Origin: Artemia franciscana
Taxonomy: Eukaryota; Arthropoda; Branchiopoda; Anostraca; Artemiidae
Assembly (NCBI RefSeq): GCF_032884065.1
Contig: NC_088866.1
Span: 25,834,335 to 25,898,334, forward strand
Direction of reading: 5' to 3'
DNA length: 64,000 bases
The number at the start of each line of letters is the position of its first letter. Position 1 is the first letter of the stretch. The position numbers were made by a program, and so were the translations under genes. The notes under the pieces are model-generated. The model was not told the origin of the DNA. It saw nothing but the letters and a program-made list of their open reading frames with translations, and did no database searches. Below are positions 2,971 to 61,771 of this stretch, piece by piece.

Positions 2971-5900
2971 CTGATATAAAAACAAGTGCTATTGTTTTAC
3001 TTTAAAATTCAAAAAAAAAAACAAAATTAAACTTAAGTATAGAAATCAGACACAGAGTCAATAAATGTATCAGGATTAAATATTTGGGTTAGGCAGCCTT
3101 AAAGGTGGGTATAGGGGGTTGAGTTTAGGAGTAAAAGGTTTGTTCTACAGGAGCAGGAGTAGAAATGCACCGTGAGTCCAAAAGCGTTCAATTAGAGGTA
3201 TCAAACAATCCCAAAGGATAGGCGTTAAGTGAATCCAGGGTAACTGCATATCGAAGCAGCTATCCAGTAAAAAAAAACAACACAGAAGTGTATTTCGTAA
3301 TCATGCGTTAAAAAGGAAAGTGCAGTATAATATTTGCAATATTCTGGAGCAACTAATAAAGGTAATGACTCAAGTATTCACAAATGTGAAATTTTGCTCT
3401 CTTCGCCCAATTTTGATATTATCATGTTTACCATAAAAAATACCAAACATACCAAAATTATAAAAATACCCGCACCGGTGGTACAGTAAAATGTAAAAAA
3501 TTGTGAAAATACCAAACTATTTTAGTTTTTATTCTTTGCCTGTTTTTTCCCCGATCCGCTGAGTTTTTTCAATAATAAATGGGTAATTTTGCTCCCTTCT
3601 CTCAATTTTAATATTATCACTTTTATCTTAATATTTTAGTTTTTTTTGTACTTTGCCTTTTTTCAATCTATTTCTTCAATTTCCAAAACGTAAGTGCACA
3701 AAATGAATTTATGCGTCAGTGCCAACCTTAGACACGGTAATCCATGGCTGCTCTGAACGAAAAAAGCCTATATCGCATCTCCTTATGGTCTTTGGTTTCC
3801 CTCTCTACAGACCTTCTAAGGACTATTCTTGATAAAAAAAAAAACAAAAAAAAAAAAACACTACCTTTCACAAAAAGATAAATGATTAAAGCGCTATTTT
3901 TTTAGATGTTGTGCTTTTTTATGATCTTTTTTTAGTTTTATGACTCTGAAATGTATATTCGACCCTTTGGGATTGTGATAGAATTTTTTTCAAATAAATA
4001 TCTTATCTCTTGCGTAAAATTGTCTTTTTGTCTTTGTAAAACTTTTTGTTAGGTAATACAGCAAGTCTTTTCAAACTGAAAAACTAAACGTATTTTGAAC
4101 AGTGTGCTTTAGTTTTCCAAAACATGGGTTAAGACCCCTTAGCACCTAAGCAAAACCCCGTCATTTCTTCATTTAGTATATTTTTTTTTCTTTGACCAGA
4201 TTTTAAGTTAACAATGTCTAGCCCCTAGCACCATTAACATATCCCCATAGATTATTATTGTGTTGCGAGAGGAACACTTTGGTTTTGTCCCATTTTTTTC
4301 CTATGCTGCCGATCTCAGCTTATTCCTGGAAACTGGTAAGGGTCTAACCTATGCGGTTTTTACAGAAAGTGTGGACCTCAGGCCGGATTGATGAATTAAA
4401 TAAAAAAAAACAAGTTTTTTGAAATGAAAGTAAGGAGCGACATTAAAACTTAAAACGAACAGAAATTACTCCGTATATGAGAGGGGCTTTTCCTCCTCGA
4501 CACCCCGCTCTTTACGCTAAAGTTTTTTTATTGTTTTAAAAAGTAGAGTTGCGAGAAAGAATCAAACTTTAGCGCAAGGAGCGGGGTGTCGAGGAGGAAA
4601 AGCCCCTTTCATATACGGAGTAATTTCTGTTCGTTTTAAGTTTTAATGTTGCTCCTTACTTTCATTTCAAAAAACTTGTTTTTTTTATTTAATTTCTGAA
4701 AGTTTTTGAATTAATGCATGTCTGATTTTGGCTCTCCGTACATAAATTATTAAAATGAAATTTGCATATTAATTCTATTTTTGGCTAAATGGCTTTCTCT
4801 TAGTTTTGACCAGACGATTTTGAGAAATAAGGGGTGGGGAAGGAGGCCTAGTTGCCCTCCAATTTTTCGGTTTCTTAGAAAGGCAACTAGATCTTTTAAT
4901 TTTTAACGAACGTTTTTATTAGTAAAAATATACGTAACTTAAGAATTAACTTACGTAACAAACTTTTATATTAATATATTTTTGATTATATATATGAGGG
5001 GGTTGGTCCCCTCGTTAATACCTCGCTCTTCACACTAAATCTTATTTTGTCCCAATTCTTTAAGAATGACCCCTGAATCAGAAAGGCCGTAGAATAAATA
5101 GTTGAAATTACTTAAAAATTTTTAGAATAAAGAGCGAAGTATTTATCTCCTCCTAAATACCTCGCTCTTTATGCTAAAGTATTTGTAGAACCCCTCATAT
5201 GCGTAATAATCTCTGTTCGTTTTAATGCTTCTCCTTACTTTCAATTGAAAAAAACTTTTTCATGTTTATATTTTCATTGTTTTTTTTTTAATAGTAATGC
5301 TAGAAAATCCTGCGCCCTTTTCATTGAATTTCTCTTCCCCAATGAAATATTCCTCCAAGGAAAGATCCTCCCATATAGCCCCCTCCCCTGAACCCCACAC
5401 CCAAACCAAAAAAATCCCCCTGATAACGTCAGTACACTTCCCAGTAACCATTACTGTATGTAAACATTGGTCAAAGTTTGTAACTTGCAGCCCCTCCTCC
5501 AGGGACTGTGGGGGGTAAGTCATCCCCAACGACATAGTTATTAGAGTTTTCGACTATGCGGAACAAAATGGCTATCTCAAAATTTTGATCCATTGACTTT
5601 GGGAAAAAATGAGCGTGGGAGGGGGCCTAGGTGTCCTCTAATTTTTTTGGTCACTTAAAAAGGGCACTAGAACTTCTCATTTCCGTTAGAATGAGCCCTA
5701 TTGCAACACTCTAGGAACACTTGGTCGATACGATGACCCCTGGGAAAAAAAAAAAAACAAAAAAAAAATAAACACGCACCCGTGATTTGTCTTATGGCAA
5801 AAAATACAAAATTCCACATTTTTGTAGATTGGACCTTGAAATTTTCCTATGACTTTTAGGGGGGTTTTACCCCCTATTTTCCAAAATAAGGCAAATTTTC

Positions 5901-8900
5901 TCAGGATCGTAACTTTTGATGATAAAGACTAAATTCGATGAAACTTATATATTTGAAATCAGCATAAAAATCCGATTCTTTTGATATATCTTTTAGCATC
6001 GAAATTCCGTTTTTTAGAGTTTCGTTTACTATTGAGCCGGGTCGCTCCTTACTACAGTTCGTTACCACGAACTGTTTGATATGACATTACATTTTGGAAA
6101 GCTCCGCGGAACTCTTGCCTGGGGCCAAAAAGGTTGCTTTTTGCTTGTCCAAGAACCAGAGCCTATGGTGTCCGAAGTGAAGTGGAGTTCTATAGCCTAT
6201 GTCAGAGAGGAGTATCTGAAGTTGTGCAGCCAAGCTTTCGTTTCATCAAACCATGTTTCTGCTTTCGAGTGGAAAGCTCCGTTCTAGCAAGCAAGCAGGC
6301 AGGCACCACTTTCAAATTGAAGATGGCCTAAAATCTATTTGTCAAATATATGCGGTAGTTACCCGACCCCACAGCCAATATATCTTCTTTGAGTGATAAA
6401 TAGAAAAATTTACAGAAGCAAAAATGTGGCATTGTTGCCATCTATTGTCTCTACCCATTTCTGTTCGTGATTTCAGCTGAGTTTATCATTCGGTTTTCTG
6501 GACTTGGGATTGCGGTAAAAAAATGGTATCAGATGTGCCTAGTAAACTTTAAAAGTTCTCTCATTGCTAAAGAAATTGGAGCTTATCCTTTGCTTCTTTC
6601 TAAGTGGTGACGTTAGAAAGTTGGCCTATGGCGAAAAAATCAACTTTTGGACTAGGACAGATAGATTTTTTTTTCGACGGCAATCGATAGCTCTTGATGA
6701 GCTGATCAAAGTATATGACATCCATTTTTTGGTACAAAAATTCCTTCATGAGGTATACCAGTTTGAAAGTTTCAAGGGGTTGACAACTTAAGTAGTAAGG
6801 TACACACTGAAACGAAATCTAGGCCGATACAAATTGTGAGACATATAGAGGACTTGTAAGCAACAGTCAGCTGTTAGGTAATAATCACCTTCGGCAATGA
6901 GGGGTTAGCAACTTTTGCTAGTTGGTGTATCTATTATTTGTTTCCAGTGTATTTGATGGTAAAACCAATTTGGTTCCAGTGGTAAGACATGTAGGGGACT
7001 TGTAAGTAATAATCTGCTGTTAGGCTACAGTCAACTTCAGCAATGAGGGGCTTGCAACTATGCTAGTTGGTGTACCCATTTATTTGTTTTCCGGTGAACT
7101 TGATGCCTATCACGAGAGAGGGACTTATAAGTAAGAATCGGTTCACTTTGGGCGAGAAACGGCTGTTAGCTCCTAATCATCATTGGCAATGAATGTTTAG
7201 CCACATTTGCTAATTGGTGTAACCTATTATTTGTCTCCGGTGTATTTGATGGTTAAACCAATGTGGTTCCAGTGGTAAGACATGTAGGGGACTTGTAAGT
7301 AATAGTCGGCTGTTGGGCTACAATCATCTTCAGAGATAAGGGGTTTGCAACTTTTGCTAGTTGGTGTACCCATTTATTTGTTCCGGTGAACCTGATGTAT
7401 ATCACGGGAGAGGGACATGTAAGTAAGAATCTGTTCACTTTGGGATAGAAATTTGTGCAAATTGGTGCACATTGTATTCGAACTCTTTAAATCTGACAGA
7501 ATTAAGTGTTTACGCAACGGGTACAAACGATAACGTAAAACAATGAGGTAGTTTCGCAATAATTAGTGTCACCTATTGTATTTTAATCCTGAAAAGTTAC
7601 AGATAGCTTTATAATACCAACTAGATTGTATAAGATTTTGTTCTAAGTTTTCATCCGTCACGATGTATACGATTGAAAAGGATAAAGATCAACTGGCTGC
7701 AAAGTCAATTTAGTCCCTTCTTTCGATATTAGTTTGTAGTTGTTGTTTTTCAACGCTGAGGAATAGCCTTTGGCCATGTGATAACTGATTGCGTTCTTGT
7801 TTGAACATACCGTTTTAAAAATTTCGATATGCTGACAACTTCGTCATTTAACCGATAGTGAAGAAGCAAGCACAAACGAGAATGTAAAACAATGAGATAG
7901 TTTCGTAATAATTAATAGAATGTCATCTATGGTATTTTGATCCTGAAAAGTACGGGATAGCTTTATAATACCAACTATATTACATGAGATATTGTTCCGG
8001 GTTTTCATCCGTCACGATGTCTACGATTGAAAAGGATAAAGTTCAACTGGCTGCAAAGTCAATTTAGTCCCTTCTTTTGATACTACTTTTTTTTGTTTTT
8101 TCAACGCTGAGGAGATTTTGTTTTCAAACAAAAAAAAAATTGTTTTTCACATTGATCCTGTGAATACTGATCAATAGCGAAGAAGCAAAACCAAAGTGTT
8201 GCTCTTGCAACACTTTAGTCGGCAAAGCCGGACAAAGGTTGCCGCAAGACTTCACGTTGCTCGGGCAACGTAGGTCTAGTTTTTCATTTCAAATTATGTT
8301 TTTTTTTTACATTAACGATAAGTTATCTTCCCAAGAGCCTCAAATAAGATATGCATGCCTTATCTTCACTTTAATCAGCTTACAATTTCTAAAACACGTA
8401 AAAATCAACGGTGCACTCAGCCAAGTCAAATATAATATCCAAGAAGACAAATAATAAGTGCTCGTTTCAAGATTTTGAACTATCTGACCTTTATCAGACA
8501 GAAAGTCACAGGTAATTTACCAAAAACAAATGGAAATTCAGGAGGAAAGCGCTACATTCTTTCACTGCATCCATAAGATTGGCGTATTCACCTCTATTAA
8601 ATATTTTTTGGATTAAAAGCTAAGGATTTTGAAGCACTTCCAAAGAGTTCTTTCTAATCATTCTGAAATCGTTACATATGCTTAACTACAATTTTGACAA
8701 ATAATTGTTATTTTGGAATAATAATTATAGCTTGCACTATTTGTGTCAGCAGTCTATTTGTTGAGCATAGTTGTGATAGTGAATTTTATCGTCCTAATAT
8801 TCAAAATGACTGCTGAGTTTCTTTTAATTTGGGGGGAAGAGAAATGGTAGACATTACTCTCGTTGTTTTTAAAGACGGGATAAATAACAAACAATAAGTT

Positions 8901-10639: not shown

Positions 10640-11606
10640 AAAATCAAATTTGTGTCCCGGTGTCCTAGTCTGTAACTTATCTTTGAGTGTTTTCTCTTTG
10701 AGTGTCCCGGTCGTCATTTATATTCCCTGTGTCCCGGTCGTCATTTGTGTCCCGGTGTCCCGGTCTGTAATTTCTCTTTGAGTGGCCCGGTCGTCATTTA
10801 TATTCCCTGTGTCCCGGTCGTCATTTGTGTCCCGGTTGTCCATGGAAAAAACAATCCGCATTCAGATCTATAGCTCATAATTTTAATGATTACCCTTGAG
10901 CTTTGTTGATGGTGATTGCTAATCGAACATTCCCTGTGTCCCGGTCGTCATTTACATTCCCTGTGTCCCGGTCGTTATTTGTGTCCCGGTGTCCCAGCCT
11001 GTAATTTCTCTTTGAGTGTCCCGGTCGTCATTTATATATCCCTCTGTGCCCCCCGGCGTCCCCGTTGTAGTTGTGTCCCTGTGTCCCAGTCGTCATTTAT
11101 ATTCCCTGTGTCTCGGTCGTCATTTGTGTCCCGGTGTCCCAGTCTGTAATTTCTCTTTGAGTGTCTCAGTCGTCATTTATATTCCCTGTGTCCCGGTGTC
11201 CCGGTCTGTAATTTCTCTTCGAACATTCCCTGTGTCCCGGTCGTCATTTATATATCCCCCCTGTGCCCCAGCGTCCCCGTTGTAGTTGTTTCCCTGTGTC
11301 CCGGTCGTCATTTATATTCCCTGTGTCCCGGTCGTTATTTGTGTCCCGGTGTCCCAGTCTGTAATTTCTCTTTGAGTGTACCGGTCGTCATTTATATTCC
11401 CTGTGTCCCAGTCGTCATTTGTGTCCCGGTGTCCCAGTCTGTAATTTCATCAGTTGACAAACATGACGTCAGTCAACAAACAACTTCACGACGACATACA
11501 GCTCAATCCTTATAATGACGTCAGTCGACAAACATGACATCAGTCGACACACAAACATGACGTAACTCGACAGACAGACAGACAGACAACTTATTTTTAT
11601 ATATAT
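10640..11606 (-). repeat. non-autonomous Helitron block rich in GTCCCGGTCGTCATTT
   Basis: About 20 copies of a short cassette built from GTCCCGGTCGTCATTT, ATATTCCCTGTGTCCCGG and CTGTAATTTCTCTTTGAG. Around 10840-10930 is a scrap of helicase 3' coding sequence (CCCTTGAGCTTTG). The block closes with TGACGTCA-containing sequence and CAGACAACTTATTTTTATATATA (complement of a Helitron 5' end) near 11580-11606. The orientation is therefore minus. Confidence 0.65.
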
Positions 11607-11731
11607 TCCCGGTGTCCCGGTCGTCATTTGTGTCCCGGTGTGCTAATGCTCAATCCTTATAATGACGTCAGTCGACACACAAACATGATGTCAGTCAACA
11701 CACAAACAAACAACATATTTTTAAATAAAAA
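11607..11731 (-). repeat. Helitron 5'-end fragment
   Basis: Contains a GTCCCGG cassette, TGACGTCA motifs and a degenerate 5' end (CAACATATTTTTAAATAAAA). It abuts the 3' end of the next minus-strand element at 11732. Confidence 0.5.
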
Positions 11732-11847
11732 CTAGCTGTTGGGGTGGCGCTTCGCGCCCCCCAAGCCCCCCCGCACAAGTAAGTCGTTACGTGCCATATT
11801 AGTTACGCGCCGTTGTAGTTGTGTCCCTGTGTCCCACCTGTGAATTT

Positions 11848-11884
<37 letters not shown>
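11732..11884 (-). mobile_element. Helitron 3' terminal fragment with GC-rich end
   Basis: On the minus strand it ends in a GC-rich hairpin-like segment followed by CTAG, with T next to the end, matching the Helitron CTRR-T rule. Inside are ATGGCGCGTAAC-type repeats and a (TA)n tract at 11848-11884. The inner hairpin arm is partly decayed in this copy. Confidence 0.7.
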
Positions 11885-11885
<1 letters not shown>

Positions 11886-12190
11886 TAGCTGTTGGGGTGG
11901 CGCTTCGCGCCACCCCAAGCCCCCCCGCGCGCGTAAGTCGTTACGCGCCATATTAGTTACGCGCCATTGTAGTTGTGTCCCTGTGTCCCACCTGTGAATA
12001 TAGATAGATTTATATATGTGTTTCAAACTACGTAAAAATTGCGAATATACAACATTCTTGACTTTCCCATTGTCTGTCCATATACAAAGCCGTATGTACT
12101 AATAATGACGTCATATGCAAACGCTCTTTTTACAAACAAACAAACATGCATACACACAACTCGTTTTTATATAGATAGATAGATAGATAG
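11885..12190 (-). mobile_element. short minus-strand Helitron derivative
   Basis: The 3' end at 11885 reads (minus strand) a strong hairpin GGGGTGGCGC-GAA-GCGCCACCCC then AACAGCTAG. It continues through the GGCGCGTAAC repeats, scraps of helicase 3' coding sequence and a TGACGTCA-like motif. It finishes at a 5'-end-like AACTCGTTTTTATATAGATAG near 12160-12190. Confidence 0.65.
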
Positions 12191-12202
12191 ATACAATACA
12201 AA

Positions 12203-13163
12203 TTAACTACGTAAAACTTGTGAATATACAACAGTCTTCGCTGTCCCATTGTCTGTGCGTATAAATAGATTGTCAGGTTTACCGACCCTCAAAGATGCAA
12301 CATACAATTGTACATTGGTAAAGCAATCTGTATTAAGATCTATACCGCATTTTTCTAGTGATTGCCCTTGAGCTTTGTTGATGGTGGTTGCAAATGCTAA
12401 TCGAATTGGGAATTGCAATCTTTTAAATTGAAAAGGCAGATCTGTTGGAATCATGGGAATGCGAGGAATAAGAACAGCCTCACCCTCAAAAGTTCCTGTC
12501 AGGATTGTGGCCTCTATTAGGTTTTCCATTGTTTTTTTTTACGACAAGTCGAGTGCCATTGCAAAGCTTTGGTGGGTTTATATTTCTTAAAAGTATTAAT
12601 TTTAATGTTTTTATGTGTGCCCATAAATTAGAATTTTTACGGCAAGCATTCATTTCGTCTGCAGGAGTTGATCTAGGTATTATAGGTAATGTAAGCCTGT
12701 TTCCCTGCTGGTCTTTTGATTCCTCGGCACGCCTTCTTTTTTCACTTTCTCTTTTAGCAGCAAGTCTGCTTCTGCGTTGCTCTGGTAGTTCCTCGGCATG
12801 CTTTCTGTTCTTTCTTTCTCTATCAGCCTCAAGCCTGTTTCCCTGCTGGTCTTTTGATTCCTCGGCACGCCTTCTTTTTTCACTTTCTCTTTTAGCAGCA
12901 AGTCTGCTTCTGCGTTGCTCTGGTAGTTCCTCGGCATGCTTTCTGTTCTTTCTTTCTCTATCAGCCTCAAGCCTGTTTCCCTGCTGGTCTTTTGATTCCT
13001 CGGCACGCCTTCTTTTTTCACTTTCTCTTTTAGCAGCAAGTCTGCTTTCGCGTTGCTCTGGTAGTTCCTCGGCACGCTTTCTTTTCTGACTTTCTCTATC
13101 AGCAGCAAGTTTTTTGGCATAGACTCTTTGAGCATCTTCATTAGTCATTGTAAACTTAAACAT
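12203..13163 (-). pseudogene. internally deleted Helitron Rep/helicase ORF
   Basis: The frame starting at 13163 encodes MFKFTMTNEDAQRVYAKKLA followed by a highly charged repeat region (46-residue unit, about 2.9 copies). It is fused directly to LPIIPRSTPADEMNAC (helicase motif III neighbourhood), then jumps to ILLRNINPPKLCNGTRL, which lies about 150 residues further on in the family. A frameshift near 12535 leads into the C-terminal helicase piece 12529-12203 with INKAQGQSL. The Rep HUH domain, Walker A and Walker B are absent. A second in-family Met (MTNEDAQ, 13148) may be the real start. Confidence 0.75.
12693..13106 (-). repeat. 138-bp coding tandem repeat (46-residue unit)
   Basis: AAGCCTGTTTCCCTGCTGGT starts at 12693 (with one flanking change), 12831 and 12969, an exact 138-base period. 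The encoded 46-residue unit is itself two related 23-residue halves of the form (R/K)-RAEE-x-QxxRLAA-RE. It is predicted to be a charged alpha-helix or coiled coil. Repeats this similar at the DNA level imply recent expansion. Confidence 0.85.
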
Positions 13164-13187
13164 TGATAGAATTCTACGCGAACATAT

Positions 13188-13275
13188 GTCTTATATAACT
13201 TGAATGACGTCACCTTCAAAGCAAAAATGATGGCAACTAATTTCATGACGTCAGCCGAAACATGACGTCACCTGA
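13188..13275 (-). promoter_or_regulatory. Helitron promoter: TATA box and CRE-like sites
   Basis: On the minus strand, TATATAAG lies at 13197-13190, about 30 bases before the first ATG (13163). Upstream are three TGACGTCA octamers at 13205-13212, about 13244 and about 13263. TGACGTCA is the consensus CREB/ATF binding site. With TATA so close, transcription should start around the first ATG, which favours MTNEDAQ as the translation start. The promoter role is inferred from motif layout. Confidence 0.55.
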
Positions 13276-13322
13276 TCCATCCACAGATCCACACACAGAC
13301 AACTTATTTTTATATATATAGA

Positions 13323-13834
13323 TATATATTTAACTACGTAGAACTTGCGAATATACAACATTCTTGGCTGTCCCATTGTTTGTGCATATAAATAGATTGT
13401 CAGGTTACCGACTCTTGAACATGCAACATATAATTGTCAATGGGAAAAACAATCTGTATTCAGATCTATACCTCATTTTTCTAATGATTGCCCTTGAGCT
13501 TTGTTGATGGTGATTGCTAATTGAACATTCCCTGTGTCCCCGTCGTCATTTATATATCCCCCTGTGCCCCCCCCCCGGCGTCCCCGTTGTAGTTGTGTCC
13601 CTGTGCCCCGGTCGTAATTTATATTCCCTGTGCTAATCGAACATTCCTTGTGTCCCGGTCGCTTTCTCTTTGAGTGTCCCGGTCGTCATTTATATTCCCT
13701 AATAGCTGTAGGGGGGGGGGTCGCTTCACGCCCCCCAGGCCCCCCCGCACGCGTAAGTCGTTACGCGCCATATTAGTTACGCGCCATTGTAGTTGTGTCC
13801 CTGTATCCCACCTGTGAATATATATATATATCTA
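13323..13834 (-). repeat. minus-strand Helitron fragments
   Basis: 13330-13530 is the non-coding equivalent of the helicase 3' end (CTACGTAGAACTTGCGAATA and onwards). It is followed by GTCCCGG cassettes (13530-13700) and a decayed GC-rich 3' end (13705-13760) with GGCGCGTAAC-type repeats up to 13800. Fragments of at least two elements are joined. Confidence 0.55.
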
Positions 13835-15195
13835 TCTATATAAAAATAAGTTGTCTGTCTGTGGATGGATGGATGGATGTGTCAGGTGACGTCACCTGAA
13901 AAAACTGGATTAGGTGACGTCAAAACTGAAAAAACTAAAAAAAGGCAAAAACTACAAAAAAAAACTAAAAACTAATAAAAAAAATAAAAAAGCTAAAAAA
14001 CTAAAAAAACTATAAAGGTAAAAACCAATAAAAAACTAAAAAAAAAACTGAAAAAACTAAAAAAAGGCAAAAACTACAAAAAAAAACTAAAAACTAATAA
14101 AAAAAGTTTAAAAAGCTAAAAAACTAAAAAAACTAAAAAAACTAAAAAAAGGTAAAAAACTAAAAAAAATAAAAAATAAAAAAAAACTAAAAAAAAGGAA
14201 AAAACTGAAAAATAAGCTAAAATAAAGGTAAAAACCAATAAAAAACTAAAAAAAAAAGGAAAAAACTAATAAATGACGACACTCAAAGAGAAAGCGACCA
14301 GGACAAAAGGAATGTTCGATTAGCAATCAACAAAGCACCGGGACACAGGGAGTATAAATGACGACCAGGACATAAGTAAAAAAAAAAAACTATCTATATA
14401 TATAAAAATAAGTTGTCTGTGGATCTGTGGATCGTGGATCAGGTGACGTCACCTGAAAAAACTGGATCAGGTGACGTCAAAACTGAAAAAACTAAAAAAA
14501 GGCAAAAACTACAAAAAAAACTAAAAACTAATAAAAAAAATAAAAAAGCTAAAAAACTAAAAAAACTAAAAAAAGGCAAAAACTACAAAAAAAAACTAAA
14601 AACTAATAAAAAAGCTAAAAAACTAAAAAAACTAAAAAAAAGGCAAAAACTAAAAAAAAACTAAAAACTAATAAAAAAAATAAAAAAGCTAAAAAACTAA
14701 AAAAACTAAAAAAAGGTAAAAAACTAAAAAATAAATAACGACCGGGACACAGGGACACAACTACAACGGGGACACCGGGGGAAACAGGGGGATATAAATG
14801 ACGACCGGGACAAAAAAACTAAAAAGAAATAAAAACTAAAAACTAATAAAAAAAACTAAAAAATCTAAAAATCTAAATAAGCTAAAAAAGAAAAAAAAAG
14901 GAAAAAAATAAAGGAGAAAAACAAAACTAAAAAACGAATGTATATACAGACCGGGACACCGGGATACAAATGATGACCGGGACCCGGGACACAGGGAATA
15001 TAAATGACGACCGGGACACAGGGACACAACTACAACGGGGACACCGGGGGAAACAGGGGGATAACCTGACAATCTATTTATATGCAAAGACAATGGGACA
15101 GCAAAGAATGTTGTATATTCGCAAGTTTTACGTAGTTAAAACCATATATATATATATATCTATATTCACAGGTGGGACATAGGGACACAACTACA

Positions 15196-15234
15196 ATGGC
15201 GCGTAACTATTATGGCGCGTAACGACTTACGCGC
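15196..15234 (+). promoter_or_regulatory. iteron-like GGCGCGTAAC repeats near the Helitron 3' end
   Basis: ATGGCGCGTAAC occurs at 15196-15207 and again at 15212-15223, a 16-base period. An inverted TTACGCGC follows at 15227-15234. The block is conserved next to the 3' hairpin in the copies at about 11790, 11940, 13755, 16935 and 18020. Conservation and spacing suggest a Rep-binding or replication-stop site. That role is inference. Confidence 0.45.
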
Positions 15235-15246
15235 GCGGGGGGGCTT

Positions 15247-15315
15247 GGGGGGGGGCGCGAAGCGCCCCCACCAACTAGGTGTTGGGGTGGCGCGAAGCGC
15301 CACCCCAACAGCTAG
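15247..15315 (+). terminator. double Helitron 3' hairpin ends
   Basis: The first end is GGGGGCGC-GAA-GCGCCCCC (15251-15269) followed by CTAG at 15275-15278. The second is TGTTGGGGTGGCGC-GAA-GCGCCACCCCAACA (15280-15310), a perfect 14-bp stem, then G and CTAG at 15312-15315. Both have the hairpin-then-CTRR form of Helitron replication terminators. The pair is repeated at 16983-17051. Confidence 0.8.
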
Positions 15316-16128
15316 TCTATATATAAAAATAAGTTGTCTGTCTGTGGATGGATGGATGGATGTGTCAGGTGACGTCACCTGAAAAAACTGGATTAGGTGA
15401 CGTCAAAACTGAAAAAACTAAAAAAAGGCAAAAACTACAAAAAAAAACTAAAAACTAATAAAAAAAATAAAAAAGCTAAAAAACTAAAAAAACTATAAAG
15501 GTAAAAACCAATAAAAAACTAAAAAAAACTGAAAAAACTAAAAAAAGGCAAAAACTACAAAAAAAAAACTAAAAACTAATAAAAAAAGTAAAAAAGCTAA
15601 AAAACTAAAAAAACTAAAAAAACTAAAAAAAGGTAAAAAACTAAAAAAAAAAAAAAAATAAAAAAAAAAACTAAAAAAAAGGAAAAAACTGAAAAATAAG
15701 CTAAAATAAAGGTAAAAACCAATAAAAAGCTAAAAAAAAAAGGAAAAAACTAATAAATGACGACACTCAAAGAGAAAGCGACCAGGACAAAAGGAATGTT
15801 CGATTAGCAATCAACAAAGCACCGGGACACAGGGAGTATAAATGACGACCAGGACATAAGTAAAAAAAAAAAAAACTATCTATATATATAAAAACTAAAA
15901 AAAATAAAAAATAAAAAAAAACTAAAAAAAAGGAAAAAACTGAAAAATAAGCTAAAATAAAGGTAAAAACCAATAAAAAACTAAAAAAAAAAGGAAAAAA
16001 CTAATAAATGACGACACTCAAAGAGAAAGCGACCAGGACAAAAGGAATGTTCGATTAGCAATCAACAAAGCACCGGGACACAGGGAGTATAAATGACGAC
16101 CAGGACATAAGTAAAAAAAAAAAAACTA

Positions 16129-17051
16129 TCTATATATATAAAAATAAGTTGTTTGTGGATCTGTGGATCGTGGATCAGGTGACGTCACCTGAAAAAACTG
16201 GATCAGGTGACGTCAAAACTGAAAAAACTAAAAAAAAGGCAAAAACTACAAAAAAAACTAAAAACTAATAAAAAAAATAAAAAAGCTAAAAAACTAAAAA
16301 AACTAAAAAAAGGCAAAAACTACAAAAAAAACTAAAAACTAATAAAAAAGCTAAAAAACTAAAAAAACTAAAAAAAAGGCAAAAACTAAAAAAAAAACTA
16401 AAAACTAATAAAAAAAATAAAAAAGCTAAAAAACTAAAAAAACTAAAAAAAGGTAAAAAACTAAAAAATAAATAACGACCGGGACACAGGGACACAACTA
16501 CAACGGGGACACCGGGGGAAACAGGGGGATATAAATGACGACCGGGACAAAAAAACTAAAAAGAAATAAAAACTAAAAACTAATAAAAAAAACTAAAAAA
16601 TCTAAAAATCTAAATAAGCTAAAAAAGAAAAAAAAGGAAAAAAATAAAGGAGAAAAACAAAACTAAAAAACGAATGTATATACAGACCGGGACACCGGGA
16701 TACAAATGATGACCGGGACCCGGGACACAGGGAATATAAATGACGACCGGGACACAGGGACACAACTACAACGGGGACACCGGGGGAAACAGGGGGATAA
16801 CCTGACAATCTATTTATATGCAAAGACAATGGGACAGCAAAGAATGTTGTATATTCGCAAGTTTTACGTAGTTAAAACCATATATATATATATATCTATA
16901 TTCACAGGTGGGACATAGGGACACAACTACAATGGCGCGTAACTATTATGGCGCGTAACGACTTACGCGCGCGGGGGGGCTTGGGGGGGGGCGCGAAGCG
17001 CCCCCACCAACTAGGTGTTGGGGTGGCGCGAAGCGCCACCCCAACAGCTAG
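16129..17051 (+). mobile_element. 923-bp non-autonomous Helitron unit, second copy
   Basis: The same 923 bases in the same order as 14393-15315, with 5' TC and 3' hairpin plus CTAG. Open frames identical to the first copy's (for example 70 codons at 16706-16918) show very high identity. They are not taken as genes. Confidence 0.8.
17016..17051 (+). terminator. Helitron 3' hairpin and CTAG end of copy 2
   Basis: TGTTGGGGTGGCGC-GAA-GCGCCACCCCAACA then G-CTAG. It is preceded by the weaker GGGGGCGC hairpin and its own CTAG at 17011-17014. Confidence 0.8.
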
Positions 17052-17054
17052 TAT

Positions 17055-17940
17055 ATATATATATATATACTTTTAACTACGTAAAACTTGCGAATATACA
17101 ACATTCTTGGCTGTCCCATTGTCTGTGCATATAAATAGATTGTCAGGTTTACCGACTCTTGAATATTCAACATATAATTGTTCACGGGAAAAACAATCTG
17201 TGTTTAGATCTATACCTCATTATTCTAATGTTTGCCCTTGAGCTTTGTTGATGGTGATTGCTAATCGAACATTCCCTGTGTCCCCGTCGTCATTTAAATA
17301 TATATATCCCTGTACCCCCCGGCGTCCCCTTTGTTGTTGTTTCCCTGTGTCTCGGTCGTCAGTTGTGTCCCGGTGTCCCAGTCTGTAATTTCTCTTTGAG
17401 TTTCGCGGTTGTCATTTATATTCCCTGTGTCCTGGTGTCCCGGTCGTCATTTTTGTCCCGGTCGTCATTTGTGTTCCGGTGTCCCGGTCTGTAATTTCTC
17501 TTTGAGTGTCCCGGTCGTCATTTATATTCCCTGTGTCCCGGTCGTCATTTGTGTCCCGATGTCCCGGTCTGTAATTTCGTCAGTCGACAAACATGACGTC
17601 AGTCGACACACAAACATGACGTCACTCGACATACACACAGACAACTTATTTATATATATATATAGATCGTCATTTATATTCCCTGTGTCCCGGTCGTCAT
17701 TTGTGTCCCGGTGCTTTGTTGGTGGTGATTGCTAATCGAACATTCCTTGTGTCCCGGTCGCTTTCTCTTTGAGTATCCCGGTCGTCATTTATATTTCCTA
17801 TTTCCCGGTGTCCCGGTCGTCATTTGTGTCCCGATATCCCGGTCTGTAATTTCGTCAGTCGACAAACATGACGTCAGTCGACACAAAAAAACATGATGTC
17901 ACTCGACAGACACACAATACAACTTATTTTTATATCTATA
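17055..17940 (-). repeat. two minus-strand Helitron fragments
   Basis: 17055-17667 starts with the helicase 3' remnant (CTACGTAAAACTTGCGAATA) and runs through GTCCCGG cassettes and TGACGTCA sites to a 5' end near 17640-17670. 17671-17940 repeats the cassette and 5'-end part only, ending near CAACTTATTTTTATATC. No protein is encoded. Confidence 0.6.
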
Positions 17941-18262
<322 letters not shown>

Positions 18263-18600
18263 GTTGCATATAAATAGATTGTCAGGTTTACTGAATCTTG
18301 AACATGCAACATATAATTGTCCATGGGAAAAACAGTCCGTATTCAGATCTATACCTCATTATTCTAATGATGTGTCCCTGTGTCCCGGTCGTTATTTATA
18401 TTCCCTGTGTCCCGGTCGACATTTGTGTCCCGGTGTCCCAGTTTGTAATTTCTCTTTGAGTGTCCCGGTCGTCATTTATATTCCCTGTGTCCCGGTGTCC
18501 TGGTCGTCATTTGTGTCCCGGTATGACGACCGGGACACAGGGACACATCATTAGAATAATGAGGCATAGATCTGAATACGGATTGTTACTCAGATAATTG
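18263..18600. repeat. Helitron fragment with inverted duplication
   Basis: 18338-18391 (from CCGTATTCAGATCTATACC through GTGTCCCGGTCGT) reappears as its reverse complement at 18522-18582. The arms are about 55 bases and nearly perfect, separated by GTCCCGG cassettes. It is a local fold-back of helicase-derived 3' sequence. Confidence 0.7.
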
Positions 18601-18627
18601 TTACTCAGATTGTTACTCTGGATACGG

Positions 18628-18672
18628 ATTGCTGTTGGGGTGGCGCTTCGCGCCACCCCAACAGCTAGTAGA
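18628..18672. terminator. Helitron hairpin with inverted loop
   Basis: GCTGTTGGGGTGGCGC-TTC-GCGCCACCCCAACAGC is a perfect 16-bp stem, followed by TAG and then T. Read towards the CTAG, the loop is TTC. Every other well-formed copy has GAA there. Confidence 0.7.
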
Positions 18673-19061
18673 TAGATAGATGTCCCGATGTCCCGGTCGT
18701 CAGTCGACAAACATGACGTCAGTCGACACACAAACATGACGTCACTCGACAGACGCACAGACAACTTATTTTTATATATATAGATATAGATGTCCTGGTC
18801 GTTATTTGTGTCCCGGTGTCCCAGTCTGTAATTTCTCTTTGAGTCTCCTGGGCGTCATTTATATTCCCTGTGTCCCGGTCGTCATTTGTGTCCCGGTGTC
18901 CCAGTCTGTAATTTCGTCAGTGGACAAACATGACGAGAGTCGACAAACAACTTCGTGACGGCATAATGCTCAATCCTTATAATGACGTCAGTCGACACAC
19001 AAACATGACGTCAGTCAACACATAAACAAACAACTTATTTTTACATTTACATAGATTTATA
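18673..19061 (-). repeat. minus-strand Helitron 5'-end fragments up to the gap
   Basis: Two truncated copies of the cassette and TGACGTCA region. The first has a 5' end near 18755-18790 (GACAACTTATTTTTATATA); the second ends near 19030-19061, where the assembly gap begins. Confidence 0.6.
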
Positions 19062-24340: not shown

Positions 24341-25524
24341 TCAAACAGTTCACAGTAACGAACTGTAGTAAGGAGCGACCCGGCTCAATATTAACCGAAA
24401 CTCTAAAAAATAGAATTTTGATACCAATAGTTACAGCAAAAGAATTGCATTTTAATGCTGATTTTAAATAAATAAGTTTCATCAAGATTAGTTTTACCCA
24501 TCAAAAGTTACGAGCCTGAGAATATTTGCCTCCTTTTCGAAAATAGGGGAAAACACCCCTAAAATTCACACGATCTTAACGAAAATCACACCATCAAATT
24601 CAGCGCATCAGAGAACCTTATTATAGAAGTTTCAAGCCCCTATCTACAAAAATGTGGAATTTAGAAATTTTTGCCAGAAGAAAAATCACGGATGCGTGTT
24701 TATTTGTTTTTTTTTCCCAGGGGTTATCGTATCGACTCAGTGGTCCTAGAATGTCGCAAAAGGGCTCTTTCTAACGGAAACTAAAAGTTTTAGTGTCCTT
24801 TTTAAGTGACAAAAAAAATTAGAGGGCACCTAGGACCCCTCCCACGCTCATTTTTCCCCAAAGTCACCGAATCAAAATTCTGAGATAGCCATTTTATTCA
24901 CCATAGTCAAAAAACCTAATAACTATGTCTTTGGAGACGACTTATTCCCCCGCAGTCCCCGTGGGAGGGGCTGCAAGTTACAAACTGTGACCTGTGATTA
25001 CATATAGTAATGGTTACTGGGAAGCGTACAAACGTTTTCTGGGCATTTTTTTGGTTTGGGGGGGGGGAGAGTTGAGGGGTGGGGGGTTACGTGGGAGGAT
25101 CTTTCCATGGAGGTACTTCTCATGGGAGAAGAGACTTTCAACGGAGGGGGCGAAGGATTTTCTAGCATTATTTAAAAAACAATGAAAAAATAAATATGAA
25201 GTTTTTTCTACTGAAAGTAAGGAGCAGCATTAAAACTTAAAACGAACAGAAATTATTACGCATATTAGGGGTTTACCTCCTCGTAATACCTCGCTCTTAA
25301 CGCTAAAGTATTTTTAGTAATCTCAACTATTTAATCTACGGCCTTTGTGATTCAGGGGTCATTCTTAAGGAATTGGGACAAAATTTAAGCTTTAGTGTAA
25401 AGAGCGAGGTGAGCGGGGCGTTGAGGAGGAAAAGCCCCTTTCATATACGGAGTAAATTCTGTTCGTTGTAAGTTTTAATGTTGCTCCTTACTTTCATTTA
25501 AAAAACTTGTTTTTTTGTTTAATT
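24341..25524 (+). repeat. fold-back repeat family, copy b (shortened)
   Basis: Starts TCAAACAGTTCACAGTAACGAACTG and continues AGTAAGGAGCGACCCGGCTC, matching copies a and c. It runs through the G-rich module near 25060-25110 to an end at 25395-25524 that matches the right hairpin arm of copy a. About 0.5 kb of the central module present in copies a and c is missing. Its opposing arm (25195-25310) belongs to a diverged arm subtype. Confidence 0.75.
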
Positions 25525-49200: not shown

Positions 49201-52200
49201 AAGTAACTTCAGTTAGTCTAAGGGTAAGAATCTTTCTTCTATTTTTTACTCTGGTTATTCCTTCCGAAAATAAAAACTTCAATTGGGAGTCTTGTTTTAA
49301 GAATCAACATTGGTTCGATTTTTACATGCCAGACATTTTTATTGTGCAAGATATGTTGTTGTGAGGTCCGAGGGTGTGTAAACGGGCTTAAAATAAAAAT
49401 TTAAAAACGATTCGCAACATTCCCGAAAAATATTTATATTGGGGCGGGGGGTATGGTAGATCTTTATTTGGTTTTAACGTCATTTGTACTTTAAGCAAAT
49501 CATAAATGTGGCTAAAGCATACACTGGGGGAGGGGATTGACTATTTTTTACATAAAAATAGTCAAAAGGCAGTGAAAATGTTGTAATCTGTAAGTAACTG
49601 GTAATTGAGTAATTCAAGGTTTCTCAGTTTTATTGTGCTATTTTGAATGAATGGTAAGAAGACAATTAATGCTGATGATCTATGGATGATGTAGCATCAA
49701 TAAGTAAAGAAGTGAGTACTCTGTCTCTACCCTTTAAGATCTACACTACTCTAGTTCATTATGTTAAATTATGGTGGACACCCATGATGGTAGAACGATT
49801 AACGTTTCTTTCCGTATTTTTCCATGATGCTATAAATCATTGACGTTTTTTTTTCAGAGATGGAAGAGTTGGTCAAATGCAGAACATTTTTATTCGTGGT
49901 TCAAAGATTAAATTTCTTATTTTACCAGATATGCTTAAAAATGCTCCTATGTTCAAAACGCTGCAGAAAGGCAAAGCACAGGCGGTTCGAGGTAAAACAG
50001 CGATCTTACGTGCCTCAGCTGGTAAGTCATGCTTGATGTTTCAAAACCAAACTGTAGGCTAACTTTGTATTTACTATAGGTTATTGTTTATCATTTAATT
50101 TGATTAAGAGAATAGTTATCCCTCGTTTAGAGTGATAAAATTAATTGAAATTGACTAGATAAGCTCTAATGAATGGTAAGAAAATTTTTTAAACAAATAT
50201 AATGCACTGATCCCACGAAGGATCCATGGCCTTAATAAGGGGGGGGGGGGGGGTGTGCACATACTATTTGAACTTTAACTCAAACATTAAATAAAGAAAG
50301 AGGGAAAGATTTCGGTGGTTGTCCAAAATTTATTCTGGTCTCTAGGCAAAAAATTGACCAGTGACCAATGTTCAAAAATCAATCAAAAACTTTTTTTTTA
50401 AATGTTGAAAGTGCCAAACGAGTGGAATTCTCTAGCTGAATTAGGAAGGGTATTCCATATAACATGACTCGGTACCAAAGGGTTGAAATCAGACCTTACT
50501 GGAAGAGCATGTGACATTGAATTGAATTGAATTTATTTATAACCCGTTATAATACACATGAAAAACGGAGTAAAATGTGAATAAAAGAAAAGAGGAAAAA
50601 GAAAATGAAATAAAAACTACACAAGAAACTTTTCAACACTTCACCTTACTTAAAAATAATTAAAACATACAAAAGCAAAACATTCATTGAAACAAAATAG
50701 CTCTCCATGGGTGCCGACCAATTCTACTATTATAAGCTTCTATGCTTTTTCTGATAGAAGCATTCGGGTCTATGATGCCGTATCTTTTAATGACCCAGGA
50801 GTTGCTTGACCATGGTGGAAGGGCAAGCAGGTATTTGGCATACCGGAAATAGATTCGCCGAAGCTCCTTCGTCTCGGTTATCGTAAACGTACGCCAAAAA
50901 GGTGCAAGGTATAAGAAGTTCGGGAGTGCAGAAGCATTGTAGAGTTTCGCTAGCAGTTTACGGTTGAGTCGAAGTTTGTTTGCTACCAAGCTTCCGTATG
51001 CAGCTGCTGTTCGACGTTGGAAATGAAGGATCAAGAGCCTTCTTGTTGCTTTAAGAGTGTCACCGATAGGAAGCCCTAAATATTTCATTTGTGATTTTGG
51101 AGAAACTGGCGCGCCGTCGAGATTAATAGTAAATCCTGCTCAAGTTTCAACCCAGTTGAACAGAACCACGTCCGATTTTTCTCTATTGAATGTAAGGTTA
51201 ATCTTAGCATATTCTTTACTTAAAATAGCAAAATTTCTTTCGAACGACTGTACTGTTCCACTAGGGTTAAAAATATCATCTGCATAAGCGATAAGTGACA
51301 CATCAATCCCTTTTAAAATACACGAAGGAACTGCGCTGGATTGGGGGTTCAGGATACATTTATTAAAGGCAACTGGAGAGGTAAGGGCACCCTGTCTGAC
51401 ACCTCGACGGACTGGAATAACGAAACGTGTTATGGTCCCATCAGGTAGTCTGATAACAACAGCAAGATGGTTATACATATCATATAAAGCACGAATGGCA
51501 GACGTGTCAACTCCCCGTTTATATAGCTCAAGGAGAATTTGTGCGTGAATCTGAGAGTCAAAAGCATGGCTTACATCATGACTCCCTAGGACGAGCGAAT
51601 CACCAGACTTATCAGCATCTATAAGTATTGACGATAGTGCAGTAAGCGCGTGGGCACACCCTAGGCCTTTTTGGAAGCCAAACTGATATGGCGGCATGTA
51701 GCATTTATTTGTAAGTTCTGGCATTACGAGTGTTTCAAAAATCTTGCAGAAAGTAGTAGCAACTGTAATAGGCCGATATGAAGAACACTCATTCAGCGTT
51801 GTTATTTTTTTTTGGAACAGGAATAAGATGACCAGAAGAGAACGAGGTTGGAACTATTCCAGTTGTGAACACCATTTGGAACATGAGATCAAGGTGACAA
51901 AGTAGTAGGGGACTTCCAAGAAGAATGTGCTTAGCACAAATATTATCTGTACCCCTCGAAAAAGGTTTCTTAATTTTTTGCGCAGAATTCATAATATCAG
52001 ACAGTGAAACAATAAACGTGGGTACAGTATTTTTTGACAGTATCCGATTGAGATCACATTTAAGGGGATATTCTACTTTGGAATCAAGTTCTGAAAACTC
52101 TTTCAAAAAATGCTGTTGCCAGGCCTCAGTAGAGATATGAGCTGACGGAGCGTTTCTTTCACTCTGGTTGCGGGTCAAACTTTTCCACAGAAGCGTCGGA

Positions 52201-55200
52201 TTACTCATTATCTTTTCTGAAAAATCAGAACGAATAGCGGCTCTATGTTTTTGCAGTTCTTTGGAAAAATGGCGCTTTGTGGAAATCCGTATTTGGTTCA
52301 CTATGCCGTTCTTGGGTCTCCCGCATTCTATCCATATGCCTAGCCAAAATTTGGCCTTCTGGCAGGCTTCAACAAGGGATGGGTTCCCGGACCAGCCCTT
52401 AACTTGTGACCCAGCACGGACTCTGGATCGAGGGACAAAGTGTGATTCTGCTTGTAGTAGCGCATGCGAAATAAGTGACGAGTACATATTTAGTTTTAGA
52501 CGAATTTCAGACGTGGGAATAGGTACTGATGTTTGGAGCAAGTCAAAAGGTATTTTTATCTTCGAAAGTAGATTATCAAGCCAGTACTGATACTGAGTCA
52601 AATCGGTTTTACTCCATTCAATGATTGTTGTCCATTTTGAAGGTCGATTTGCGCGCATTCGATAAAATGGTGCACTGATTCGGAACGATAGCGGTAAATG
52701 GTCAGAAGCAAAAAATTCACGGAGCACATTTACTGTTAATGAGCTACTAAAAATACTACTAGACACAAGGACATGATCAAGGTTAGAAACTGATCCGGTA
52801 AGGTGGATGTACGTAAAGTCACCCGCTTTCGGTACAAGAGCACTTTCATTTGGAATCAGACTAAGCAGAAGAGCTGAACGCGAGCTTTCACTTTTGGATA
52901 TATCACAATTAAAGTCCCCCAATAAAATCCAATGGAGATGAGAAGCACTAATTTTATTCATACATTTCCCCAGTTCTTTGCAGGCTAGAGCAAACTTCAT
53001 TTCGGAGCAATCGTCTCTGTAGTCGGTGGGCAGGTACACATTTATTATAACAGTCTCGCCAACTCTAACTGCTAAGAAATGGTTGGAACTAGCGAACAAT
53101 TCGGAGTTGATATGCCCACTTATTAGCGTGGCAAGTCCACCCGAGGGGCGCCCTCGTTTCTTAGGTTTTTTCGCTGGTACAAAATGGACCATGTGTGAGG
53201 GTAAGGCATTGAATATATTTCTACTGTCGTTAGACAGAAAGTGTTCTTGGAGATAAATAATTTCTTCGGTGAGGCAGAGCTGTTCAAGCACGGTAATTTT
53301 GGTACTAAGACTACCATTCATATTCCAGGAGACGAAACGCTTGTCAATATAAAATTCATTCATTTTGGGCGTTTGAGGTCATTAACTTCGCTGACTTGTT
53401 AGATATTTTGAGAGCTACAGAACTGATAATTTGACATCCAGTAAGGGTTCAGTTGCTGAACTACTTCTTTCTTGACTAGATTTTTGGCTTTATTATAAGT
53501 GTTGGAAAACCGTTTGAAAAAAGAAGGAAAAATAGACATTCATGTAATTGACCAATAAGAAACACGACTAAATTAAACTGTGAAAGAGTATTCTTTGAAT
53601 CGGCGAAAGAAATATCTGTTTGGACTTTCTGAGGGCACTAAGGCTTCTGCATGCCTTCGTTTTAGTCAATATTGTGGTTAAGAGGTAAACTGTTGTCAAC
53701 TCAGATAACAGTCTTGGTCAATCTGTGATATACTGTTAGAGCCTTTGGACAGATGGATTTCAGAAAGTCAAGGGTAAACCTGAGATACACGAAATAAACT
53801 AAAAACTAGACTTACAAACGCTTAGGGCAGCAACCTTTCATCAAACCAAAGTAAACTCTCGAACAGGTCCATTAGTTTTGTACTCACCTCAGTCTCCGTT
53901 CTCCCTGAAGTAACAGGGGTACTATTATCTGCAGAAGTTCCAGGAGAATCTAAAGGAAGTAAGCTATGATTATGGACACAAGAAAATATAGGATGGCACA
54001 GACACCATTGTCAAAATCTCGTAAAATTTGAGATTGTAAAAATCTCGAAGATTAAAGGTTCAGTATGACCATCTCCTTCAGATCTAGGCAACTTTTTTGC
54101 CTCTCTTAAATATCTCCGGGGAGTGATTTACAAAGTGTGTTTGACATACTGGAAACGACGTCAAAATTAAAGGGACGTCCAAGCGCAATAGTATGTTTCT
54201 TTTGAGTAATTTAGTCATCCAGCTCTAGATGAAAATCTTGATTTTACGCAATGCCATTGTTGAGCCATTTCATTGAATCATTCAGTCAACATTGTGTTTT
54301 TTCTCTGATGCCTTTCCTCTTCTGCTTCTCTTCTGTTGCGCGTGCGTTGTCAATAAGTGGTTGATTTCGGAGTTTTATTGTTTTACCGCCTTTTTTATTT
54401 AAAGTTCTAGAAATGATTTTTTGGTGGAGGTTTTGCGGTTAATGGTCTAACCTTTAATTGGTAAATATTTAACTATCATTCTTTGAGCGACTTCATTTTA
54501 ATAATAGAGAAGTTACTCTCTCTCATTACTTGTTCTGAAATACTATTGTATGTGAAATTTTGAGTCACGTCGGTCTTCCTGTTCCCATGCCCCTCGCTGC
54601 CTTTAAGCTTTGAACATCCCTGAGTAGCCGCTATTGAAATATTAATACTTTTTCAAAGCTGCCAGGTAAAGTTGCTTCTCTCGTCCTTACGATTTAATTT
54701 ATGAGTGAAACTTAACTTGTCACGGTGTTGCTAAATTAAGCAGCTGGATATTCTATATTTAGCTGTGTATCCTCTGCCACCTGAATCAAGGGCTCTCGTC
54801 CTGTTTTTGGGTCCCTGACGCAGCTAGGTTTTTCCTAAAACACTTCTTTTTATAAATTTATGATTGCAGGTAATATTATATCGTCTGCAGTAGACCTTTT
54901 CCCGTACTCCAAAAATAATTTATTACCGTTTGCGTACCTTGCTTGTAGATTGTGCGGAAAGTATATGTTTAAACATCCTTTCTATTATATTTTATTGTTA
55001 TGATATTGGTGGTATATTTTTATTAATTTATTTCATCCTGTTATATTGTTTTTTTATATTATAATTTGTTATCGCTTACATCTATTTAATTTTGATTGGA
55101 AATTTGAGGTTAGTATTGCAATACTATTGCTATTTTGTTATCATTACGTTATCCTGTTATATATTATTTTTTTAACAATTATGAAAGCTCTTTGCTGAGC

Positions 55201-60162: not shown

Positions 60163-61771
60163 TCAAACAGTTTGTGGTAACGAACTGTAGTTAGGAGCGA
60201 CCTGGCTCAATAGTAACCAAAACTCTAAAAAATAAATAGAATTTTGATACCAATAGCTACATCAAAAGAATCGCATTTTAATGCTAATTTTAAATATATA
60301 AGTTTCATTAAGTTTAGTCTTACCCATCAAAAGTTACAAGCCTGAGAAAATTTGTATTATTTTAGAAAATAGGGGGAAACACCCCCTAAAAGTCATAGAA
60401 TCTTAACGAAAATCACACCATCAGATTCAGCGTATCAGAGAACCCTACTGTAGAAGTTTCAAGCTCCTCTCTACAAAAATGTGGAATTTTGTATTTTTTG
60501 CCAGAAGGCAGATCATGGATGCGTGTTTATTTGTTTGCTTTTTTTCTATTTCCGAAATTGGAGGGCACCTAGGCCACCTCCCACACTAATTATTTTCCCA
60601 AAGTCAACGGATCAAAATTCTGAGATAGACATTTTATTCAGCATAGTCGAAAAACCTTATAACTATGTCTTTGGGGACGACTTACTCCCCCACAGTCCCC
60701 GTGGGAGGGGCAACAAGTTACAAACTTTGACCAGTGCTTACATATAGTAATGGTTATTGGGAAGTGTACAGGCGTTTTCAGGAGAATTTTTTTGGTTGGG
60801 GGGAGGGGTTGAGAAGAGGGGGATATGCTGGGGGAACTTTCTATCGAGAATTTGTCATGGGGGAAGAAAATTTCCATGAAGGGAGTGCAGGATTTACTAG
60901 CATTATTTAAAAAAACAATGAAAAAATAAATATGAAAAAGTTTTTTCAGCTGGAGGTAAGGAACAGCATTAAAACTTAAAACAAACAGAAATTATTACCC
61001 ATAAGAGGGGCTCACCTCCTCCTAATACCTCGCTCTTTACGCTAAAGTATTTTTAGTAATTTCAACTAATTATTCTACGGCTTTTGTGATTCAGGGGTCA
61101 TTCTTAATGAATTGGGACACAATTTAAGCTTTAGTGTAAAGAGCGAGGTACGGACGAGGGGGCGAACCCCCTCATATATGTAATAAAAACATGAGAATAC
61201 AAAAGTTCTTTACGTAAGCTAATTTATAAGTTACGTAAATCTTTTAGCCTACTAATAAAAAGATTTGTAAGACATTAAAAGTTCTAGCTGCCTTTTTAAT
61301 TAACCAAAAAATCGGAGGGCAACTAGGCTTCCTCCCCTACTCTTTTTTTCTCAAAATCATTCGATCAGAATCATGAGAAAGCCATTTATCAGAAAAAAAA
61401 AATGCATATTTCATTTTAATTATTGCTCTGCGAAGAGCCAAAATCAAAACGCATTGATTCAAAAACGTTCAGAAATTAAATAAAAAAAAAGTTTTTTAAC
61501 TGAAAGTAAGGAGCGACATTAAAACTTAAAACAAACAGAAGTTACTTCGTATATGAAAGAGGCTGCTTCCTCATCAACGCCCCGCTCTTTACGCTAAAGT
61601 TTTTTACTGTTTTAAAAAGAAGAATTGAGAGAAAGAGTCAAACTTTAGCGTAAAGAGCGGGGCGTTGATGAGGAAGCAGCCTCTTTCATATACGAAGTAA
61701 TTTCTGTTCGTTTTAAGTTTTAATGTCGCTCCTTACTTTCAGTTAAAAAACTTGTTTTTTTTTTATTTAAT
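60163..61771 (+). repeat. fold-back repeat family, copy c (full length)
   Basis: About 1.6 kb in plus orientation. It starts ATCAAACAGTTTGTGGTAAC, then GAACTGTAGTTAGGAGCGAC. Next come the G-rich module (60790-60850), the central module with ACGTAAGC and GGAGGGCAACTAGGC (61190-61480), and the long hairpin 61478-61771. Order and content match copy a read in reverse. Confidence 0.8.
61478..61771. repeat. about 130-bp-arm hairpin at the end of copy c
   Basis: The left arm runs from 61478 to about 61603 and the right arm from about 61641 to 61771. They are near-perfect complements, including GAGGCTGCTTCCTCATCAAC against GTTGATGAGGAAGCAGCCTC, which differ from copy a in the same way on both arms. 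I count two substitutions plus a three-base indel between arms. Confidence 0.9.

Follow-up and report, generated by a model that had tools for sequence, protein, structure and literature searches.

Inverted repeats whose two arms change together are known from several systems. In yeast, template switching between inverted repeats is recognized by homogenization of the arms together with inversion of the spacer (PMC8604942), and concerted arms also occur on human sex chromosomes (as cited in PMC6649704). A terminal hairpin can have a function of its own in rolling-circle transposons: that at the 3′ end of the bat Helitron Helraiser acts as a transposition terminator (PMC4778049). Helitrons account for 8.81% of the genome of Artemia franciscana (PMC11492255). 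A stretch of 64,000 nt from this genome (NC_088866.1, positions 25,834,335 to 25,898,334; hereafter the window) contains two large fold-back repeats, each of which is one end of a longer non-coding element of 1.2–1.7 kb, present in the window as copies a, b and c. Young copies of this element carry mostly changes in one arm of the hairpin, and families separated by ∼9% differ mostly by changes in both arms. Recurrent template switching or conversion within the 3′-terminal hairpin of what would be a Helitron2/HINE-like non-autonomous element probably explains both the concerted arms and the inverted loops found in these copies.

An initial annotation, made from the window alone, had reported two fold-back repeats with arms of ∼130 bp. 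Both exist at the places given, except that the hairpin of copy c starts at 61474 and not at 61478. In copy a, the hairpin, here called HP1, covers 4393–4696 and consists of an outer, body-distal arm (4393–4525) holding the motif AGTAAGGAGCGAC at 4429–4441, a loop of 38 nt (4526–4563) and an inner, body-proximal arm (4564–4696). HP1 of copy c has its inner arm at 61474–61602, a loop of 37 nt at 61603–61639 and its outer arm at 61640–61771, with the same subterminal repeat at 61725–61737 (no strand is assigned to these hairpin parts). The folding energy of copy a is −142.9 kcal/mol, compared with a mean of −29.9 and a standard deviation of 3.9 in 100 shuffled sequences (z −29). Its two arms are identical at 127 of the 134 positions aligned, with seven mismatches including the ragged ends and four in the stem core, and those of copy c at 126 of 128, with two mismatches. 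Between copies, the arms differ at 8–12 sites and by indels. The quoted variants are present on both arms, CTTTTCCTCCTCGACACC and ACTCCG in copy a and CTGCTTCCTCATCAACGCC and ACTTCG in copy c. Variable columns among the four arms follow the copy in 12 cases, of which three sit in a sliding A/T run and nine are reliable; none follows the side, none the loop side, and 18 show other patterns. In a tree of eight arms, the two c arms stand together (92/93) and the outer arm of b is placed beside the inner arm of a (91/94), within the a group. Three points were absent from the initial annotation: the hairpins are the ends of longer elements, copy b is chimeric, and the loop of c is inverted.

The generality of these observations was assessed on copies from the whole genome. 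Seed candidates numbered 1,621 for the a hairpin, 773 for the c hairpin, 3,611 for the right end and 22,664 for b; these are seeds and not verified copies, and 40 of them were scored for each query. Selection by hairpin gave 64 hairpins, of which 62 were used (28 of family A and 34 others), 59 of them with a usable body. Sampling of this kind favors unchanged hairpins, and another set of loci was therefore picked by means of the element's far end. Of these 32 loci (20 + 12), three were already sampled places and six lacked a full hairpin, which left 23 hairpins and, after removal of the low-scoring L068 and L087, 21, one of them being copy a. Arm changes were counted over ∼104 columns, excluding the A/T-rich outer tail.

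Pairing within the stem was examined in 29 hairpins picked by hand, in which 97.5% of the stem cells are paired. Double changes affect 36 of the 112 stem pairs, versus 11.3 in shuffled data (none of 500 shuffles reaches 36) and 4–9 when the partners are slid; a further 18 pairs vary on one side only. The earlier conclusion that independent mutation is insufficient and that copying from arm to arm is needed is thus upheld. Selection for pairing, for a terminator function or for double-stranded RNA, could in principle produce double changes by compensatory second mutations in the absence of any copying, and the terminator role of the Helraiser hairpin is in its favor, as are the pairs that vary on one side only, which imply that G–T intermediates occur. 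However, some of the double changes are transversions (C–G/A–T at columns 37/282 and 110/209), for which stepwise compensation is unlikely because no G–T wobble intermediate exists. In addition, an exact-complement second hit at the same site should be too rare at ∼9% divergence, and one-arm changes accumulate in copies. Selection for pairing is therefore a highly improbable explanation.

The differences between a and c had been taken for changes of two individual copies; they are instead diagnostic of whole families. The consensus of the 28 hairpin-selected family-A copies differs from that of the 34 others at eight sites on both arms and at three sites on one arm. Nor do the arms cluster by copy, as had been expected: they tend to cluster by side, the outcome that the initial annotation had named as refuting it. 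The nearest arm is the same-side arm of another copy for 54 of the 56 family-A arms (the two others being one tie and one case of the other side) and for 51 of the 68 other arms; the copy's own other arm is strictly nearest in 0/56 and 12/68 cases, respectively. The initial annotation also considered that each event makes one arm anew from the other; this is disfavored by arm/loop boundaries that are constant in the 29 aligned hairpins and by loops that are homologous. Collectively, the concerted arms are real and the main inference was right, but correction is too slow for young copies to look concerted. An artefact of assembly or polishing might also homogenize arms and flip loops, given that palindromes are hard to assemble and that a single assembly is available. 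Hairpins of ∼300 bp should nevertheless be short relative to long reads, two differences between the arms are kept in 25 of the 28 copies, and both-arm changes are common to whole families at many places in the genome; an artefact is extremely improbable.

The 28 family-A copies have 24 changes restricted to one arm and seven paired cells (shuffled mean 1.5, largest 5), which come from two distinct changes, each common to several copies; L050 alone has a both-arm change at column 43, just outside the counted columns. The other 34 copies have 60 paired cells (shuffled mean 8.8, largest 27), which reduce to 33 distinct paired changes; 20 of these occur in one copy. A tree was built from the bodies of 53 copies, leaving out L017, L028.1, L033, L035, L036.1 and L055.1 for poor body cover or very long branches and keeping L020 and L056 despite their long branches. 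On this tree, internal branches carry 18 paired and 17 single changes, compared with 23 paired and 157 single changes for terminal branches (odds ratio 7.2, p 1.6e−6); with the R columns slid by 1–7, only 3–7 branches change on both sides.

These counts first suggested that correction might be restricted to transposition: a single-stranded or rolling-circle intermediate would fold, mismatches in its hairpin would be repaired and new copies would start matched, resident copies remaining uncorrected. Such a process would account for both-arm changes being frequent on internal branches (18/35) and scarce on terminal ones (23/180), and for the fact that neither of the two paired changes in the counted columns of family A is confined to one copy, versus 24 one-arm changes. 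The body-selected sample and the rate fit then weakened it. Two differences between the arms survived the amplification of family A, 25 of the 28 hairpin-selected and 12 of the 21 body-selected copies carrying both, and therefore transposition does not reset the arms each time. The remaining nine body-selected copies show the R-arm base on the L arm as well, eight of them at the first site and one at both sites; these may represent few events, seven copies sharing one state. Moreover, private both-arm changes occur in four of the 21 body-selected copies (L061, L062, L070 and L077), beside 56 single changes, compared with a shuffled mean of 0.43 and a largest value of 3 in 2000 shuffles, and the change in L050 is to be added outside the counted columns. 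Since a constant rate also fits the data without it, correction in transposition only is an unlikely explanation.

Template switching or conversion between the arms, the process that we infer, can be expressed as a rate. In the simple model used, correction of a mismatched site goes in either direction, and r is its rate per unit of substitution time; the model takes no account of selection, of differences in rate or of subfamilies missing from the sample. Estimates of r are 17.8 (4.8–45) from young body-selected copies, 29 (18.5–44) from terminal branches and 69 (21–353) from the family split; these share copies and are not independent. A single constant r, about 21–44 times the substitution rate, is contained in each of the three intervals, and arm-to-arm copying is thus estimated to be some thirty times faster than new mutation. 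Because the intervals overlap, internal and terminal branches can differ as observed without any special step at transposition, although such a step may exist. Copying during transposition, as initially invoked, may thus contribute, but a constant correction rate is sufficient. Mechanistically, the arms would pair as a cruciform or hairpin while the copy sits in the chromosome or is replicated. A polymerase switching template between the arms, or gene conversion, would then copy a mutation to the other arm or erase it, and a switch paired with a switch back would leave the loop inverted. A mismatch between arms would last on average ∼1/30 of a unit of substitution time, and this persistence would account for the prevalence of one-arm changes in young copies and of both-arm changes between families.

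Inversion of the loop is observed directly. Loops of a and c can be aligned only if one of the two hairpins is turned around with respect to its body; the score is 26.7 in one sense and −1.1 in the opposite sense, and 2000 shuffles reach 11.5 at most. On the tree of 53 bodies, loop orientation requires three changes: one separates the a clade from the c clade, and two are flips of L055 and L056 within the a clade, the long branch of L056 making its exact place unsure. A further flipped loop occurs in L088, one of the 21 body-selected copies, so that three of 48 different a-type hairpins (28 + 20) are flipped. Of the 34 other hairpins, 29 have the c orientation and two the a orientation, and three could not be assigned; for L057, orientation was assigned by eye according to how its body matches. 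One of the two with the a orientation, L012 (1501–1802), has a c-type hairpin on an a-type body, from which it follows that whole hairpins are also exchanged, and L068 (2911–3194) has a divergent hairpin on an a-type body; both suggest exchange of whole hairpins between subfamilies. Such exchange, importing both arms together from another family, could be taken as the source of the paired differences themselves, all the more as b is chimeric. Yet it moves paired differences and cannot create them, and the two hairpin types, c and a, are already distinct on both arms; exchange is a very unlikely explanation of the concerted arms. Elsewhere, two HP1 hairpins lie close together as if element ends were stacked, in tandem in L021 (935–1803) and with bodies on opposite sides in L036 (1500–2152).

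Several points weigh against recurrent template switching or conversion at a constant rate. Most copies were picked by similarity to a or c, and the ends are the sole ground for membership in the Helitrons. The r of 69 obtained at the family level exceeds the 18 of young copies, a value at which the family-level split would be unlikely (0.01), and all three estimates share copies. The larger paired share on internal branches is also expected of a process tied to transposition, and at least 17 of the 23 terminal paired changes are found in L038, L034, L021 and L018, which may be unsampled subfamilies. Finally, crossover or non-crossover gene conversion between the arms would leave marks identical to those of template switching.

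The three elements of the window have body and right end in common, and no open reading frame of ≥110 aa is found in them. Element a (4394–6079, minus strand, 1.69 kb) begins with TC at 6079 and finishes with TTTAA(T), its 3′ end being formed by HP1; at its 5′ end it has a small hairpin, ACAGTTCGT-TACC-ACGAACTGT (6054–6075), followed by the subterminal repeat (6041–6053), and internally an older, degenerate hairpin region, HP2 (4981–5275). Element c (60163–61771, plus strand) has the same limits and HP1 at its 3′ end, with its small hairpin at 60167–60188 and its 5′ subterminal repeat, containing one mismatch, at 60189–60201. Element b (24341–25525, plus strand) is a chimera of an HP1-type outer arm (25411–25525) and an HP2-type remainder, joined at 25410/25411. 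This is concluded from the use of b as a query, where 38 of the 40 scored copies match only from query position 118–122, corresponding to the junction, the rest being b itself and one more. Arms of b are identical at 92 of 111 aligned positions and are less alike than those of a and c. HP2 of copy a contains a short inverted duplication of stem sequence (5121–5187; 23 of 25 aligned bases identical) that lacks a counterpart in b and c. It looks like a local snap-back copying event and, as a further event of this type, supports recurrent template switching or conversion.

In the TC orientation, the ends are sharp. All three elements start with TCAAACAGTT and have a 5′ hairpin of 22 nt (two mismatches to the pattern in b, one in c), and a and c terminate with the giant hairpin at the 3′ end. 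The 13-bp subterminal repeat AGTAAGGAGCGAC occurs at +27 and, inverted, 34–36 nt before the 3′ end in all three elements; the 3′ copy of b and the 5′ copy of c each contain one mismatch. Over the window, nine matches to it with ≤2 mismatches are found, versus 0.67 expected. A fourth match to the small end hairpin, with three mismatches, is seen at 43733–43754, where the profile of the three elements finds no element; it may be due to chance. Target-site duplications at the outer ends, proposed initially as a check, were sought in 29 copies with both end motifs intact, for lengths 1–8 and nine end placements, and none was found, the excess over shuffled pairing never being more than two copies. 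Insertion is biased. In the orientation of the body, 27 of these 29 copies have A immediately before TTAAA[TC] and 23 have T immediately after TTTGA; read in the TC orientation, A precedes TC (23/29) and T follows the 3′ TTTAA (27/29), the latter border being uncertain by one base as the base adjoining TTAAA could belong to the element.

Judged from its ends only, the family is apparently an abundant non-autonomous element with rolling-circle ends of the Helitron2/HINE type. As in Helitron2, Helentron and HINE elements (PMC5148889, PMC4067079, PMC7492417), it combines subterminal inverted repeats (11–15 bp in that group), a 5′ copy close to the end and a 3′ copy tens of bp from the end, with a hairpin or palindrome near the termini, here the 22-nt 5′ hairpin and the 3′ HP1, and with the lack of a target-site duplication seen in the 29 copies; earlier analyses of target-site modification by DINE-1 have been called inconclusive (PMC4067079). 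No Rep/helicase carrying these ends, as expected of an autonomous partner, was found, though no search aimed at one was completed. It differs by the size of its arms, ∼130 bp compared with 3′ palindromes of 5–10 bp in HINE-Mo in the accounts of this group, and by insertion between A and T, as in canonical Helitrons, where Helitron2 and HINE favor TT or T-rich sites; some Helitron2 relatives use other targets (PMC5148889). With canonical Helitrons (Helitron1, e.g. Helraiser, PMC4778049), it shares the TC start, insertion between A and T, the absence of target duplication and a 3′ hairpin. It lacks their 3′ CTRR end, terminating with TTTAA(T), has ∼130-bp arms in place of a hairpin of 16–20 nt located ∼11 nt upstream of the end, and possesses subterminal inverted repeats. 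By analogy with Helraiser, HP1 may act as a transposition terminator.

Long inverted repeats characterize foldback elements such as Galileo and are found here too. Unlike in foldback elements or MITE-type elements with terminal inverted repeats, the fold-back here is one end of an asymmetric element without target duplication. A free-standing fold-back insertion is ruled out: the 64 hairpins come from 58 loci, and the element body flanks 59 of them on a single side and one on both sides, the script recognizing no body for the other four. An RNA gene was likewise rejected, no Rfam match being found in the window at gathering scores. Searches of viral_contigs and genome_contigs gave no match outside the A. 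franciscana genome, with exact patterns only and with records of that genome possibly excluded. No earlier description of the element was found in the literature by titles and abstract openings, which does not prove absence; the repeat library of the A. franciscana genome paper may contain it under another name.

The window holds other repeats and coding remnants. A fragment of a PIF1-like helicase (20249–20899; Pfam PF05970, E 1.8e−41) is located in another repeat and probably belongs to what remains of an unrelated Helitron within the repeats of 10–21 kb. An open reading frame of 69-bp tandem units at 12486–13163 matches Pfam STPRs and, near its end and below the cut-off, Pif1 2B, an unusual domain company. 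Many short blocks built around GTCCCGGTCGTCATTT in several arrangements (10648–19001) constitute a separate repeat system. Three head-to-tail copies of a 278-bp unit (43895–44728; 96% and 92% identity to the first) are followed downstream by a stretch with an LSM domain (Pfam PF01423) at 45204–45332. Open reading frames of non-LTR retrotransposons with endonuclease and reverse transcriptase occur at 37103–40477 and 51140–53363, the first also with RNase H.

The occurrence of one hairpin in many copies of different age in one genome makes the speed of correction measurable relative to substitution, and the frequency of loop inversion as well. It also shows that hairpins at Helitron-like ends can exceed many times in length those in the Helitron accounts compared here. 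It is tempting to go further, although this is speculative and rather doubtful, and to propose that a rolling-circle family has enlarged its 3′ terminator into a self-repairing fold-back of 300 nt: the arms would template each other during replication of the element, the terminator would stay functional, the loop could be inverted and the hairpin could be swapped whole between subfamilies. The process is known in kind; its setting and its measurable rate were not found described, as judged by titles and abstract openings. As with template switching in yeast (PMC8604942), the outcome is recurrent homogenization of the arms and inversion of the spacer. The cases of spacer inversion in that account concern arms of 10–16 bp and spacers of 2–5 bp in yeast genes, whereas the arms here have ∼130 bp and the loop 37–38 nt, in many copies of a mobile element. 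Concerted arms, including paired substitutions within species, are likewise found in the long inverted repeats of Nematomorpha mitochondria (PMC6649704), but these lie in mitochondrial coding sequence and have near-perfect arms, and the portion of that account considered here does not describe them as mobile; the hairpin of the A. franciscana element is carried by an apparently rolling-circle family, in copies of different age.

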